A DNA stretch of 63,233 bases, taken from positions 29,034 through 92,266 of the forward strand of contig NZ_JAPQEZ010000005.1 of the NCBI RefSeq assembly GCF_026798195.1. Reading direction: 5' to 3'. Source of the stretch: Lentilactobacillus senioris (GTDB lineage Bacteria > Bacillota > Bacilli > Lactobacillales > Lactobacillaceae). Position numbers and translations under genes: made by a program. The notes below the pieces were generated by a model, which had not been told where the DNA came from, ran no database searches, and worked only from the letters and a program-made list of their open reading frames with translations. Below, piece after piece: positions 37,542 to 59,584 of the stretch; position 1 is the stretch's first letter; each line of letters begins with the position of its first letter.

Positions 37542-37931
37542 TTAGTCTTCTGCTACGTAGTTATCGCTCCAACGGTTTGGCTTAGATGGTAGTACCATCA
37601 AGATAAAGAACCAGATGGTCCCGATAATTGGAATGATCGAGATTAAAATCCACCAACCAGAGTGGTCGGTATCATGTAAGCGGCGGAACTTTACTGAAAG
37701 GGTTCCAAACCAGACAACAAGAAATACAATTTGAACCACCAAGTTAGTAGTAATTTGACTCCAAGTCATAACGTTACTATCAATAGAATGTCCTGTAATT
37801 AGGTCGGCAATAATAACAACAACAATAGCTAAAATATAGTTAAGAAACATTGGCCACCAATAATCTGGCCGGTTTGCAGTTCCAGAAAAGTTTCCTAGAT
37901 TACTCCAGAAACGTTTGTATGATTCAATCAT
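37542..37931 (-). CDS. DUF805 membrane protein (YhaH-like)
   Basis: The 129-residue protein has the DUF805 pattern: FSGTANRPDYWWPMFLNYIL, then a second helix pair with KFRRLHDTDHSGWWIL and a final helix. The function of DUF805 is unknown; it is common in firmicutes and proteobacteria. GGGGGG precedes the ATG. Upstream, 200 bp away, lies the tandem structured array at 38131-38672, which a leftward transcript would include. Confidence 0.88.
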   Translation of the reverse strand: MIESYKRFWSNLGNFSGTANRPDYWWPMFLNYILAIVVVIIADLITGHSIDSNVMTWSQITTNLVVQIVFLVVWFGTLSVKFRRLHDTDHSGWWILISIIPIIGTIWFFILMVLPSKPNRWSDNYVAED

Positions 37932-38130
37932 ATAAATCCCCCCTTATTTATAAACCTAGATTAACATAGATTTTAATTAGTGGGGTATTAAAAGCTCACA
38001 GAAAATTCAATAAGTATTTTAATTTATTTCATATTTCTCGTTAATAATCTGGTACAGAATTATGCTAAGTGACGTACTTTTGGCTTCAATAGGTTATTTT
38101 CTTAGGTTAATTTATCACTAATTCTCAAAG
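37932..38130. other. AT-rich upstream region of DUF805 gene
   Basis: This stretch probably holds the leftward promoter of the DUF805 gene (TTGAAT near 38010 and TTTAAT-like -10 elements on the minus strand). No ORF, terminator hairpin or clear repeat was seen. Confidence 0.45.
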
Positions 38131-38672
38131 GTCTTAGCACTCTGCCATAAATCGGCATCTCAAAGCAAACAGTTTCGCCTAGCTCAATTAATTTAATAGC
38201 GATTCAAAGTTCGAAGCTAACTATCTAAATTAATGAGCACTATGCTCGCTGTTTAACCGCTTTGTTCACTAAAACGGCTTCCAGAACCAATCATTTCCGG
38301 TTAAATTAAAGAGCAGCAATAGCAATTCAAATTTCGAATCGAACTATTACTGCTCTTTAGAATTAATCCTCAATGATTAAGCGGTTCTGTCAGCACTTTA
38401 TTCTTAAAACGGCTTTACCTCACTGCTTTTTCCGTCCAACAGAAAAATGCTAAATAGTGATTCAAAAAACAAATCGAACTATTCAGCATTTTTTCATTGG
38501 TACTCGAAAGCACCCGTGAGTTTCAGCACTCTGTCATAAATCGGCCTCTCAAAGCAAACAGTTCCGCTTAGCTCAATTAATTTAATAGCGATTCAAAATT
38601 CGAATCGAACTATCTAAATTAATTAGCACTATGCTCGCTGTTTAACCGCTTTGTTCAGCACTCTGTCTCTAG
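38131..38672 (-). ncRNA. Tandem array of four structured ~130-nt repeat units
   Basis: Four units share one architecture. Outer helix: 38161-38172/38249-38264, 38282-38295/38372-38389, 38419-38430/38506-38520, 38550-38561/38638-38653; each is interrupted by a 3-4-nt bulge on the right strand (AACC, AAGC, CCC, AACC). Inner helix: 38182-38199/38221-38238, 38307-38322/38344-38359, 38443-38457/38479-38493, 38571-38588/38610-38627. Helix sequences differ between units 1/4, 2 and 3 but stay paired. Apical parts (ATAGYRATTC...AATCGAACTAT) and linkers (CAGCACT, CGGC) are conserved. Strand is not certain; minus is chosen because asnS and the DUF805 gene read leftward. Confidence 0.7.
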
Positions 38673-40057
38673 AATTCCGCGTTACCCGGCGTTCTTGGGT
38701 AAGGGATCACGTCTCGGATGTTTTCCATCCCAGTTACGTACATCAAGAGGCGTTCAAAGCCAATTCCGAAACCAGAATGTTCTGTTTCACCATATTTACG
38801 TAAATCAAGGTACCATTGGTATTCTTCCATTGGCATGTTTAATTCTTTGATCTTAGCGGCTAGGACGTCTTCACGTTCTTCCCGTTGACTACCACCGATT
38901 AATTCTCCGATTTCAGGAACCAAAAGGTCCACAGCAGCAACGGTCTTATCATCATCGTTAACTCTCATGTAGAAAGCCTTAATGTCTTTAGGATAGTCAG
39001 TTAAGAAGACTGGTTTCTTAAAGACTTGTTCTGAAAGGTAACGTTCGTGTTCACTTTCAAGATCTAGTCCCCAATAAACTGGTACTTCGAAGTCTACATC
39101 AGCCTTTTGTAAAATGTCGATGGCTTCGGTATAAGTGATTTGGGCAAATGGTTCTTCACGAGTCTTGGTCAAACGTTCGATTAAGTGTTCATCCACGTTG
39201 TCGTTCAAGAATTGCAGTTCGTCCATGGCGTGATCGAAGAGGTAGCTAACTACGTACTTCAATAGTCCTTCGGCTTCCACAATAACGTCTTTTAAGTCAG
39301 CGAATGCCATTTCGGGCTCGATCATCCAAAATTCAGCAGCGTGCCGAGAAGTGTGGGAGTTTTCAGCTCTAAAGGTAGGGCCAAAAGTATAAACGTTCTT
39401 AAATGCCAACGCAAAAGGTTCCACGGCTAATTGGCCACTAACGGTTAAGTTAGTTTCCTTCTTGAAGAAGTCTTCGTGATCGTCCACCTTACCGTCTTCG
39501 GTCCGTGGCAGGTTTTCCATATCCAAAGTGGTTACTCGGAACATTTCACCAGCGCCTTCAGCATCACTACTAGTGATAATTGGGGTGTTTACGTAAACGA
39601 AATCTTCTGATTGAAGGTATTGGTGAATGGCGAAGGCAGCCAAGGAACGGATCCGGAAAACAGCGTAGAACGTGTTAGTCCGGGGACGTAAGTGAGCCAT
39701 TGTCCGTAAATATTCGTAAGTGTGCTTCTTCTTTTGAAGAGGGTAGTCGTTGTCAGAATGTCCTTCTAATTCGATTGATTCTGCGTGAATTTCTAGTGGT
39801 TGTTTAGCTTCTGGAGTGTAAACAACGGTCCCAGTAACGCCAATCGTAGAGCTAATTGGCAATTTAGTGAGTTCCTCGTAGTTAGGTAAGTCACTTTGCA
39901 TAACGATTTGGGCACGCTTGAAGCAGCTACCATCGCTTAATTCGATGAAGCCAACTCGTTTAGAGCCCCGAACGGTTTTAACCCAACCGTGTAAGGTGAT
40001 TTGTTCGTCTTCAGCAAAATGTTGGTCGCTGAATAATTGTTTAACTGTAATATCCAT
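38669..40057 (-). CDS. asnS: Asparaginyl-tRNA synthetase
   Basis: The 462-residue class II synthetase has an N-terminal OB-fold anticodon-binding domain ([20 protein letters not shown]) and a catalytic core with motif 2 [20 protein letters not shown] and motif 3 [15 protein letters not shown], ending PRTPGNAEF. It charges tRNA-Asn. The start is ATG 40057 with GAGAGGAG upstream. A T-box leader lies directly upstream. No terminator follows: its stop codon abuts the tandem RNA-like array. Confidence 0.95.
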
Positions 40058-40081
40058 AATGGTTCTCCTCTCGATAGTTGA

Positions 40082-40345
40082 GAAAATAAAAAAGCCTTTC
40101 CTCCCTTGATAGGGACGAAAGACTTCCGCGGTACCACCCAAATTGTCCGTTACTGCCCGGACCAGCTTAAACGTACTAACATACGTTCCGCTTGATAACG
40201 TTGCGGTGACGGCGCGTCCTACTAAGGAGTTCAGACGGCAACTAAAAGGGTGTTATTTCGGTTACCAAATTTTATTAGGCTCACACTCTTCCTAACTCGC
40301 TTCAAAACTTTAGTAACTTACTTGTCCGCTTTTCTCGTTTTTTTC
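40082..40345 (-). ncRNA. T-box riboswitch of asnS
   Basis: The minus strand contains the T-box motif TGGGTGGTACCGCGG (40140-40126) followed by an intrinsic terminator (40125-40089, AAGTCTTTCGTCCCT / AGGGAGGAAAGGCTTTTTT). Upstream lies the roughly 200-nt Stem I region. Uncharged tRNA-Asn should favour the antiterminator and switch asnS on. Confidence 0.92.
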
Positions 40346-59351: not shown

Positions 59352-59584
59352 GAAAATATCATATTGCGTTGAGCAAATAGAGTAGAAGGTTAGGGGCCAA
59401 ATAGAAAGCTAACGGACGCTGCAAGTTAGCCAAACTAATCTTTGAAATTACAATTTGGGAGCAATTTAAAATCCGGGTCATTTCGTTATCAATGCTAATG
59501 AAGCGATTATCTTATTTGATAATAACCTGGGTGGTAACGCGGAAAATTTCGTCCCTGACATCAATTGATGTTGGGGACTTTTTA
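59352..59584 (+). ncRNA. T-box riboswitch of tyrS
   Basis: CTGGGTGGTAACGCGG (59527-59542) is the T-box sequence. It is followed by a terminator (GTCCCTGACATCAATTGATG.. to GGGAC, 59551-59578, then T's). The roughly 180-nt upstream segment contains Stem I. Uncharged tRNA-Tyr should relieve termination. Confidence 0.92.

Follow-up and report, generated by a model that had tools for sequence, protein, structure and literature searches.

Four similar hairpin units stand in tandem between a gene for asparaginyl-tRNA synthetase (asnS) and a DUF805 gene of Lentilactobacillus senioris, and the question is whether they form an RNA element that belongs to this locus, a DNA repeat that folds, or both. 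The window, i.e. the whole stretch of DNA that was analyzed, comprises 63,233 nucleotides. From its letters the original prediction had described the array as four covarying RNA-like units between asnS and the DUF805 gene, with a tandem layout for which it knew no named counterpart.

The array behind asnS and the fold of its units

A search with a covariance model of 18 units of the host genome (model R1, whose training set included the four array units among others) found four full hairpin units between asnS and the DUF805 gene, and blastn added the left half of a fifth, all on the minus strand. The array sets in 6 nt past the stop codon of asnS, read on the minus strand, and the features of the locus are:

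37542-37931, minus strand: DUF805 gene, the next gene downstream of asnS and on the same strand (Pfam PF05656, 2e-24)
38100-38141, minus strand: fifth unit, left half only, type F (blastn matches at three other places of the host genome that hold F-type units)
38145-38270, minus strand: unit of type A, second copy (R1 match, 93 bits; not among the R2 matches)
38267-38397, minus strand: unit of type B, P1 = CAGAACC/GGTTCTG (R1 and R2 matches)
38402-38530, minus strand: unit of type C, P1 = ACTCAC/GTGAGG (R1 and R2 matches)
38534-38662, minus strand: unit of type A, the first in the sense of asnS (R1 and R2 matches)
38669-40141, minus strand: asnS open reading frame (asparaginyl-tRNA synthetase; Pfam PF00152 and PF01336), ATG start likely near 40057
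40108-40344, minus strand: T-box leader upstream of asnS (Rfam RF00230, 95.5 bits)

The gene name asnS, which was given in the original prediction, fits the two Pfam domains. On contig C35 of the host genome (G000) the four full units occupy, in the order of the list, positions 67178-67303, 67300-67430, 67435-67563, and 67567-67695. They score 93-124 bits with R1, and the broader model R2 (35 units, 46 pairs) recovers three of the four, the first A, C and B, at E<=0.01. The folding energy of the 601-nt array region lies 8.8 standard deviations below that of shuffled sequences (n=20). The prediction of four structured units is thus borne out, as is their spacing, the starts being 122, 135, and 132 nt apart. 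A second T-box leader is present elsewhere in the window (59360-59559, plus strand, Rfam RF00230, 93.3 bits).

The units, which are about 120 nt long (about 122-130 nt in the asnS array), share one plan: P0 of 4 bp, P1 of 7 bp, a one-sided bulge of 3-4 nt, P2 of 7 bp, the internal loop TGAG/CGGA, GC-GC pairs, and a long apical stem. Read 5' to 3', the sense consensus runs from AGTG(C) in P0 over three loose bases and P1 to the bulge GG(T)TA on the 5' side and to P2. Inward of P2, TGA on the left faces GGAG on the right, followed by two GC pairs, a bulged A, and the long apical stem with its loop; the 3' end of the unit is CACGTTT. Kept throughout the family are the GG(T)TA bulge, the TGAGC/GCGGA internal loop, and the ends AGTG...CACGTTT, and the two bases preceding AGTG are AG in 87 of 101 first units of arrays. 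Unit types A to F occur in varying orders. One array of G000 holds a chimeric unit (L002:1452-1576) with a left half of type B and a right half of type A, and in the arrays of G000 and its relative G007 a left half is a frequent terminal piece.

The helices, the one-sided bulge and the internal loop of the original description were recovered by RNAalifold on the 18 units of the host genome. Two of its details need correction. The bulge is real, but the natural strand of the units is the minus strand, i.e. the sense of asnS, so that a bulge described as lying in the right strand lies on the 5' side. The apical GATTC...GAATC element is also present, but it is restricted to a few species instead of being family-wide; in the window's species, in G007, and in G002 it corresponds to a two-base UU bulge in the apical stem, UAG-UU-CG...CG-CUA.

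Spread of the family and the strand that pairs

Blastn with the array led to 12 places in the host genome, and R1 found 27 matches there and matches in 20 of the 24 genomes of the genus. The notion of an element special to asnS and DUF805 had to be given up, as the array is one of 27 dispersed matches in its own genome, and there are many more in the order. A regulator linked to DUF805 or asnS was likewise rejected, because units adjoin unrelated genes. Homologous arrays, for which the original prediction had called, were found in other genomes of the host's family and order. With R2, at least 103 of 201 genomes and at least 22 of 40 genera of the host's family were matched, and in the order sample at least 68 of 295 genomes and at least 28 of 74 genera; the model E-values are rough, stricter filters were used together with a ceiling on the candidates scored in each genome, and these counts are lower bounds. 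Informally, the 98 genomes of the family in which R2 found nothing act as a negative control. Order-sample matches outside the host's family came from 50 genomes, many with weak scores, and five out-of-family genomes that were inspected closely (G034 and G435 are among the unit bearers) have 14 to 86 matches each with the same plan. A single-contig genome contains 97 matches, the weaker ones of which are partial. A pattern of the loop letters only, which covers part of the family and was run on named genome contigs, found at least 120 stretches. Ten genera of Lactobacillaceae are represented among the 80 matches listed, namely Levilactobacillus, Lactiplantibacillus, Lapidilactobacillus, Loigolactobacillus, Lacticaseibacillus, Companilactobacillus, Ligilactobacillus, Paucilactobacillus, Latilactobacillus, and Pediococcus, together with a few records named only Lactobacillus.

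DUF805 and DUF805b RNA motifs are in Rfam, and the neighboring DUF805 gene is what links them to this locus. The comparison with Rfam that had been proposed gave no family match in the array. At curated cut-offs only T-box and TPP elements, both outside the units, were found in the window and 12 relatives, which excludes an element catalogued in Rfam, and the 12 matches to the array region at E values up to 10 belong to other families and stay far below their cut-offs. The titles, abstract openings and parts of matching papers that were covered by a literature search contained no description of such a hairpin family in lactobacilli; a Lacto-int motif appears without an Rfam number in a listing within PMC2864571. 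The units represent a large family of folding elements of about 120 bases that is present in many lactic acid bacteria and is apparently uncatalogued.

Support for the claim of divergent stems, conserved loops and covariation comes from the MAFFT alignment of the 18 units of the host genome, for which RNAalifold predicts 38 pairs, 29 of them with double changes. Among 122 matches on named contigs, which amount to 121 distinct rows including two partial ones, double changes occur in 43 of 46 pairs, and 91.8% of 5395 cells are paired. The covariation score of this set is 0.707, whereas shuffles reach 0.187 and slid structures no more than 0.129, and all five covariation measures exceed those of 500 of 500 shuffles and of every slid structure; the 122-match alignment was fitted to the model, and thus the MAFFT alignment is the more telling one. 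Compensatory changes above the level of shuffles and slid structures are what is expected of a structured RNA family. The original prediction had concluded from the divergent stems that structure is selected and that a recent DNA repeat is excluded. The former part holds, but the latter does not, as the two type A units of the asnS array are 93% identical over 138 nt.

Equal numbers of G-U and A-C oppositions are expected if pairing were kept at the level of double-stranded DNA. A pairing-neutral test, in which the apical arm was read ungapped and unfiltered in all 76 distinct hits of the loop pattern, yielded 209 G-U versus 22 A-C oppositions; 69 sequences are richer in G-U, four are richer in A-C, and three have equal numbers. 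With a filter that counts G-U as paired, which keeps 72 of the 76, the numbers are 205 versus 18. The excess goes in the same direction across four alignments (alignments A4 and A6 were fitted to the model), with 40 versus 4 in the units of the host genome, 421 versus 93 in those of the sister genomes G187 and G164, 470 versus 103 in the named units, and, as a weaker bias, 99 versus 38 in units of other families. Therefore, pairing is kept on one strand, the sense strand of the unit. As G-T is the mildest mismatch in DNA, RNA is favored without being proven, and a folded single strand of DNA is compatible with the counts as well. The strand-specific structure probably exists at the level of RNA. 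Units in sense orientation between their neighbors (n=31) have 114 G-U versus 27 A-C oppositions, and those antisense to both neighbors (n=15) have 50 versus 15; the latter bias is not predicted by a pure role in 3'-UTRs.

Place behind stop codons and differences of whole units

The placement of the units was analyzed with 101 first-of-array units and mechanical gene calls (open reading frames of at least 100 codons). Thirty-four lie between convergent genes, four between divergent genes, and 17 at locus edges; between codirectional genes, 31 are in sense and 15 in antisense orientation (p 0.026). In 46 of 65 units the start is at most 20 nt from the stop codon of an upstream gene of the same sense, with a median of 8 nt. 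A strict terminator-like hairpin is present in the 100 nt downstream of 25 units and upstream of five (n=96), compared to 0.2% in shuffles, so that most units have no downstream terminator by that test. Of 99 units, 14 have TCGGAG in the 30 nt downstream, compared to 0.44 in shuffles. Reading by eye revealed arrays whose last piece is a left half joined to a terminator hairpin (L187/L198, L192/L202) and, in some of the matches listed, a single unit with a TCGGAG remnant and then a terminator behind it. None of the compared sites presented a clean empty target of a single unit. Along contig C1 of G187, units are nearly absent from the middle, at about 0.8-1.4 Mb of 1.995 Mb; the unit loci per contig tenth (n=74) are 10, 19, 8, 6, 0, 1, 2, 4, 16, and 8.

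The sites of related genomes differ by whole units. Most of the fetched sites of G000 and G007 align at 80-97%. At one of them G000 has units C and D, while the sequence of G007 continues without either; AAAGTGCTR precedes each unit, and at this one insertion boundary that was read there is no target duplication beyond the unit's own start motif. The asnS site carries A-C-B-A in G000 versus a single D unit in G007, and at L190/L200, where 7 kb of the two genomes align at 90%, the unit is of type F in G000 and of type C in G007. A two-genome alignment contains a stretch of 117 nt, the length of one unit, in one genome that is missing in the other. These comparisons of sites indicate that whole units are gained, lost or substituted from one related species to another. 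Slippage losses between short repeats explain some of the presence/absence differences without transposition. As copy number and unit type differ at the same sites, the original opposition of selection on RNA structure to a DNA repeat was a false choice, and both hold.

Twenty-three sites of the sister genomes G187 and G164 were paired by hand. At 13 of them the units are at most 0.80 identical, while the 400-nt upstream flanks are 0.86-0.97 identical, and each unit still folds. One of the 13 pairs, L234/L364, is probably a mispairing, as the L364 unit matches another L234 unit at 0.94; among the ten pairs outside the 13, the upstream flanks of L228/L333 are unaligned. Each of the 12 differing G187 units listed is nearer to some other unit than to its partner at the same site, with best identities to other units of 0.76-0.86, compared to a median best match of 0.80. 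Among the partners only L339 reaches 0.90 with a paralogue. No near-identical donor for the differing units was found among 101 distinct fetched units, a part of all units, so that exchange and a fast compensated change in place are both compatible with these sites.

Pairing has been retained where sister units are similar. In the 11 G187/G164 pairs with a unit identity of at least 0.80 (L240/L357, with 0.80, belongs to the 13 as well), 25 one-sided changes and six double changes keep the pair and 11 changes break it. The neutral expectation is that 27-37% of single changes keep a pair, and the changes between G187 and G164 keep pairs more often than that. A count on model columns, in which some pairings are wrong, gave 31 kept, four double, and 28 broken for 14 pairs. 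In ten same-type pairs of G000 and G007 (of 11, the different-type pair being left out), 12 one-sided changes keep the pair, one is double, and 19 break it; these counts are near neutral, and therefore individual copies in the host genome may be decaying. The fold is kept across the family as a whole, and single copies may decay.

Orthologous units that are identical over 128 nt and 121 nt were observed within stretches that are 88% and 94% identical, respectively; the 128-nt unit is shared by two species (L186:3832-3959 and L197:4076-4203). Such full identity speaks for exchange or strong constraint.

Known elements, movers, and possible explanations

The claim that no named element has this layout is probably wrong, because the EFAR elements of Enterococcus faecalis look like the same kind. 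EFAR, which Venditti et al. are said to have described in 2007, reportedly comprises modular elements of 42-650 bp with 16 sequence types, most of them 170 bp long with two stem-loops, and is said to insert into stem-loop targets, the stems of which are partly kept. The likeness consists in short, modular, intergenic hairpin repeats of Lactobacillales with several sequence types that are variably assembled. Modular assembly as reported for EFAR was found here in the orders of the unit types and in the chimera, and stem-loop targets of the reported kind would fit both the half units fused to terminators and the single units with a TCGGAG remnant and a terminator. The differences are that EFAR has reportedly been described in one species and as DNA elements, whereas one covariance model here joins many genera, pairing is strand-specific, and the arms are compensated. 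We regard the family as a variant of the EFAR kind and not as a member, the comparison being one with the reported plan of EFAR. EFAR elements of enterococci are counted among the MITEs in a passage of PMC3733652, and a passage of PMC2267715 lists an E. faecalis family Efa-1 of 163 bp with a pair of adjacent stem-loops; our guess is that Efa-1 and EFAR are the same.

Other known repeats are less similar. ERIC, YPAL, and NEMIS/Correia elements are known by their conserved sequence, whereas the units described here have free arms and keep mainly loops and bulges. According to passages of two papers (PMC2267715, PMC3733652), those elements are imperfect intergenic palindromes of about 100-170 bp that are foldable, occur in many copies, and influence neighboring genes as RNA. 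The units share with REP/BIME elements and their RAYTs the hairpin repeats in intergenic space, but they are 3 to 4 times longer, and a Y1 transposase is missing in 11 of 16 unit-bearing genomes. It (PF01797) is present in five of the 16 and in none of G000, G007, G187, and G164; a reverse transcriptase (RVT_1, PF00078) is also present in five and absent from G000, G187, and G164, and eight of the 16 lack both. Since each is missing in 11 genomes, neither can be the general resident mover. A phage origin has no support, as phage records had no match to the window array or to a unit of G034, and the loop pattern, which covers part of the family, found no stretch in viral contigs. Plasmid searches with the window array and the G034 unit led nowhere. 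A Pediococcus unit as query matched eight plasmids of Lactobacillaceae at one common MarC locus, seven of them over the whole length of a subsequent query and one over 62%; the locus is matched in all eight, and there is thus no empty site. In an annotated plasmid record the alignment with the unit sets in 17 nt past the MarC stop codon, which puts the start of the unit itself about 8 nt past it. The MarC-linked unit resides on mobilizable plasmids of Lactiplantibacillus plantarum and Loigolactobacillus backii, which are a possible route between genera. On plasmid NZ_CP012655.1 (L296:2501-2614) the unit lies directly 3' of the MarC gene, and a recombinase-family gene is nearby.

Any explanation has to account for the fold, the strand, the place, and the whole-unit differences between related genomes, all of which are established by sequence comparison. 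The reading that we favor, and that we hold to be somewhat better than an even guess, is that the units are mobile, modular, non-autonomous hairpin cassettes of an EFAR-like kind that lie in most cases behind stop codons and are recognized by their fold on the transcribed strand. We infer that a unit would be copied as RNA into the 3'-UTR of the upstream mRNA, where its long duplex could shield the 3' end or serve as a site for a double-strand-specific nuclease and would in either case set the lifetime of the mRNA. The same fold would be what the moving machinery recognizes, which would leave the arms free to vary but not the bulges and loops. Insertion between the stop codon and the terminator, or beside another unit, would generate arrays, and the units would be mobilized by an enzyme acting in trans. 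A more far-reaching version is a bold proposal that we put forward with considerable doubt: sites between stop codon and terminator might be docking sites that are repopulated across Lactobacillales by exchangeable 3'-UTR cassettes, recognized by their fold, not their sequence, on the transcribed strand and moved by an enzyme of some type other than Y1 transposases and reverse transcriptases; the 3' ends of mRNAs would thereby be reshuffled among sister species.

The units could instead be single-stranded DNA cassettes like the attC sites of integrons, with a hairpin in one DNA strand, a recombinase that joins the ends, and no part for RNA. In attC sites the arms are free, one-sided bulges are fixed, and folding is strand-specific, and all of this is also true for the units, which moreover form arrays, differ at fixed sites as whole units that adjoin other units at a short conserved boundary, and have antisense copies with the same strand bias. 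However, no coding cassettes lie between the units, their ends are different, with AGTG...CACGTTT in place of R boxes at the outer ends (by eye, compared to the attC consensus), their strand was not linked to the contig half in G187 (Fisher p 0.24; halves taken by contig position), and a tolerance of G-U this strong agrees better with RNA than with DNA. We consider this explanation unlikely. It is rather improbable that the units are solely a host-serving family of 3'-UTR RNAs, kept by selection at each gene and changing fast and compensated in place, with a dispersion that goes back to old duplications. The placement at 3' ends, the strand-specific pairing, its maintenance at conserved sites of G187 and G164, and the lack of a near-identical donor for most differing units would all be in agreement with such a family. 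It accounts poorly for unit types and numbers that differ at the same site between G000 and G007, for the lack of a common gene function among the cases seen (asnS, MarC, others), for the antisense copies, for the near-neutral changes between G000 and G007, and for the family genomes without a match. Ordinary MITEs, i.e. palindromic remnants of DNA transposons that are moved in trans via terminal inverted repeats, would have the size, the copy number, the palindromic ends AGTG/CAC, and the intergenic placement of the units, but this is a very improbable explanation: the arms share little sequence beyond the loops, and thus there is no long sequence-specific terminal repeat, pairing is strand-specific, and the one insertion boundary shows no target duplication beyond the start motif.

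Lactic acid bacteria are in wide use, and their genomes bear units at dozens of gene ends each (up to 97 matches). If the units set mRNA ends or lifetimes, they would represent a hidden layer of gene control, and if the cassettes are recognized by their fold, they would point to a new recombination enzyme. Both questions can be tested directly in the sister genomes, whose fixed sites differ by whole units.

Two further elements accompany the units. An element of two hairpins, AAAGTGCTG-GAGAGAGAAACTAAATTTC... followed by the hairpin GTTGGCT...AGCCAAC, alternates with units in the same arrays (L187:4050-4340, L188:4265-4360, L192:4315-4430, L219:745-845); it lies outside the coverage of R1 and R2 and is sometimes fused into P1 of a unit. 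Terminator-like hairpins 3' of units in Levilactobacillus (L068, L128, L130, L132, L136) have a stretch similar to TGGGACAAAAG (complement CTTTTGTCCCA) in common with the P0/P1 arms, as if the arms came from terminators or could pair with them.
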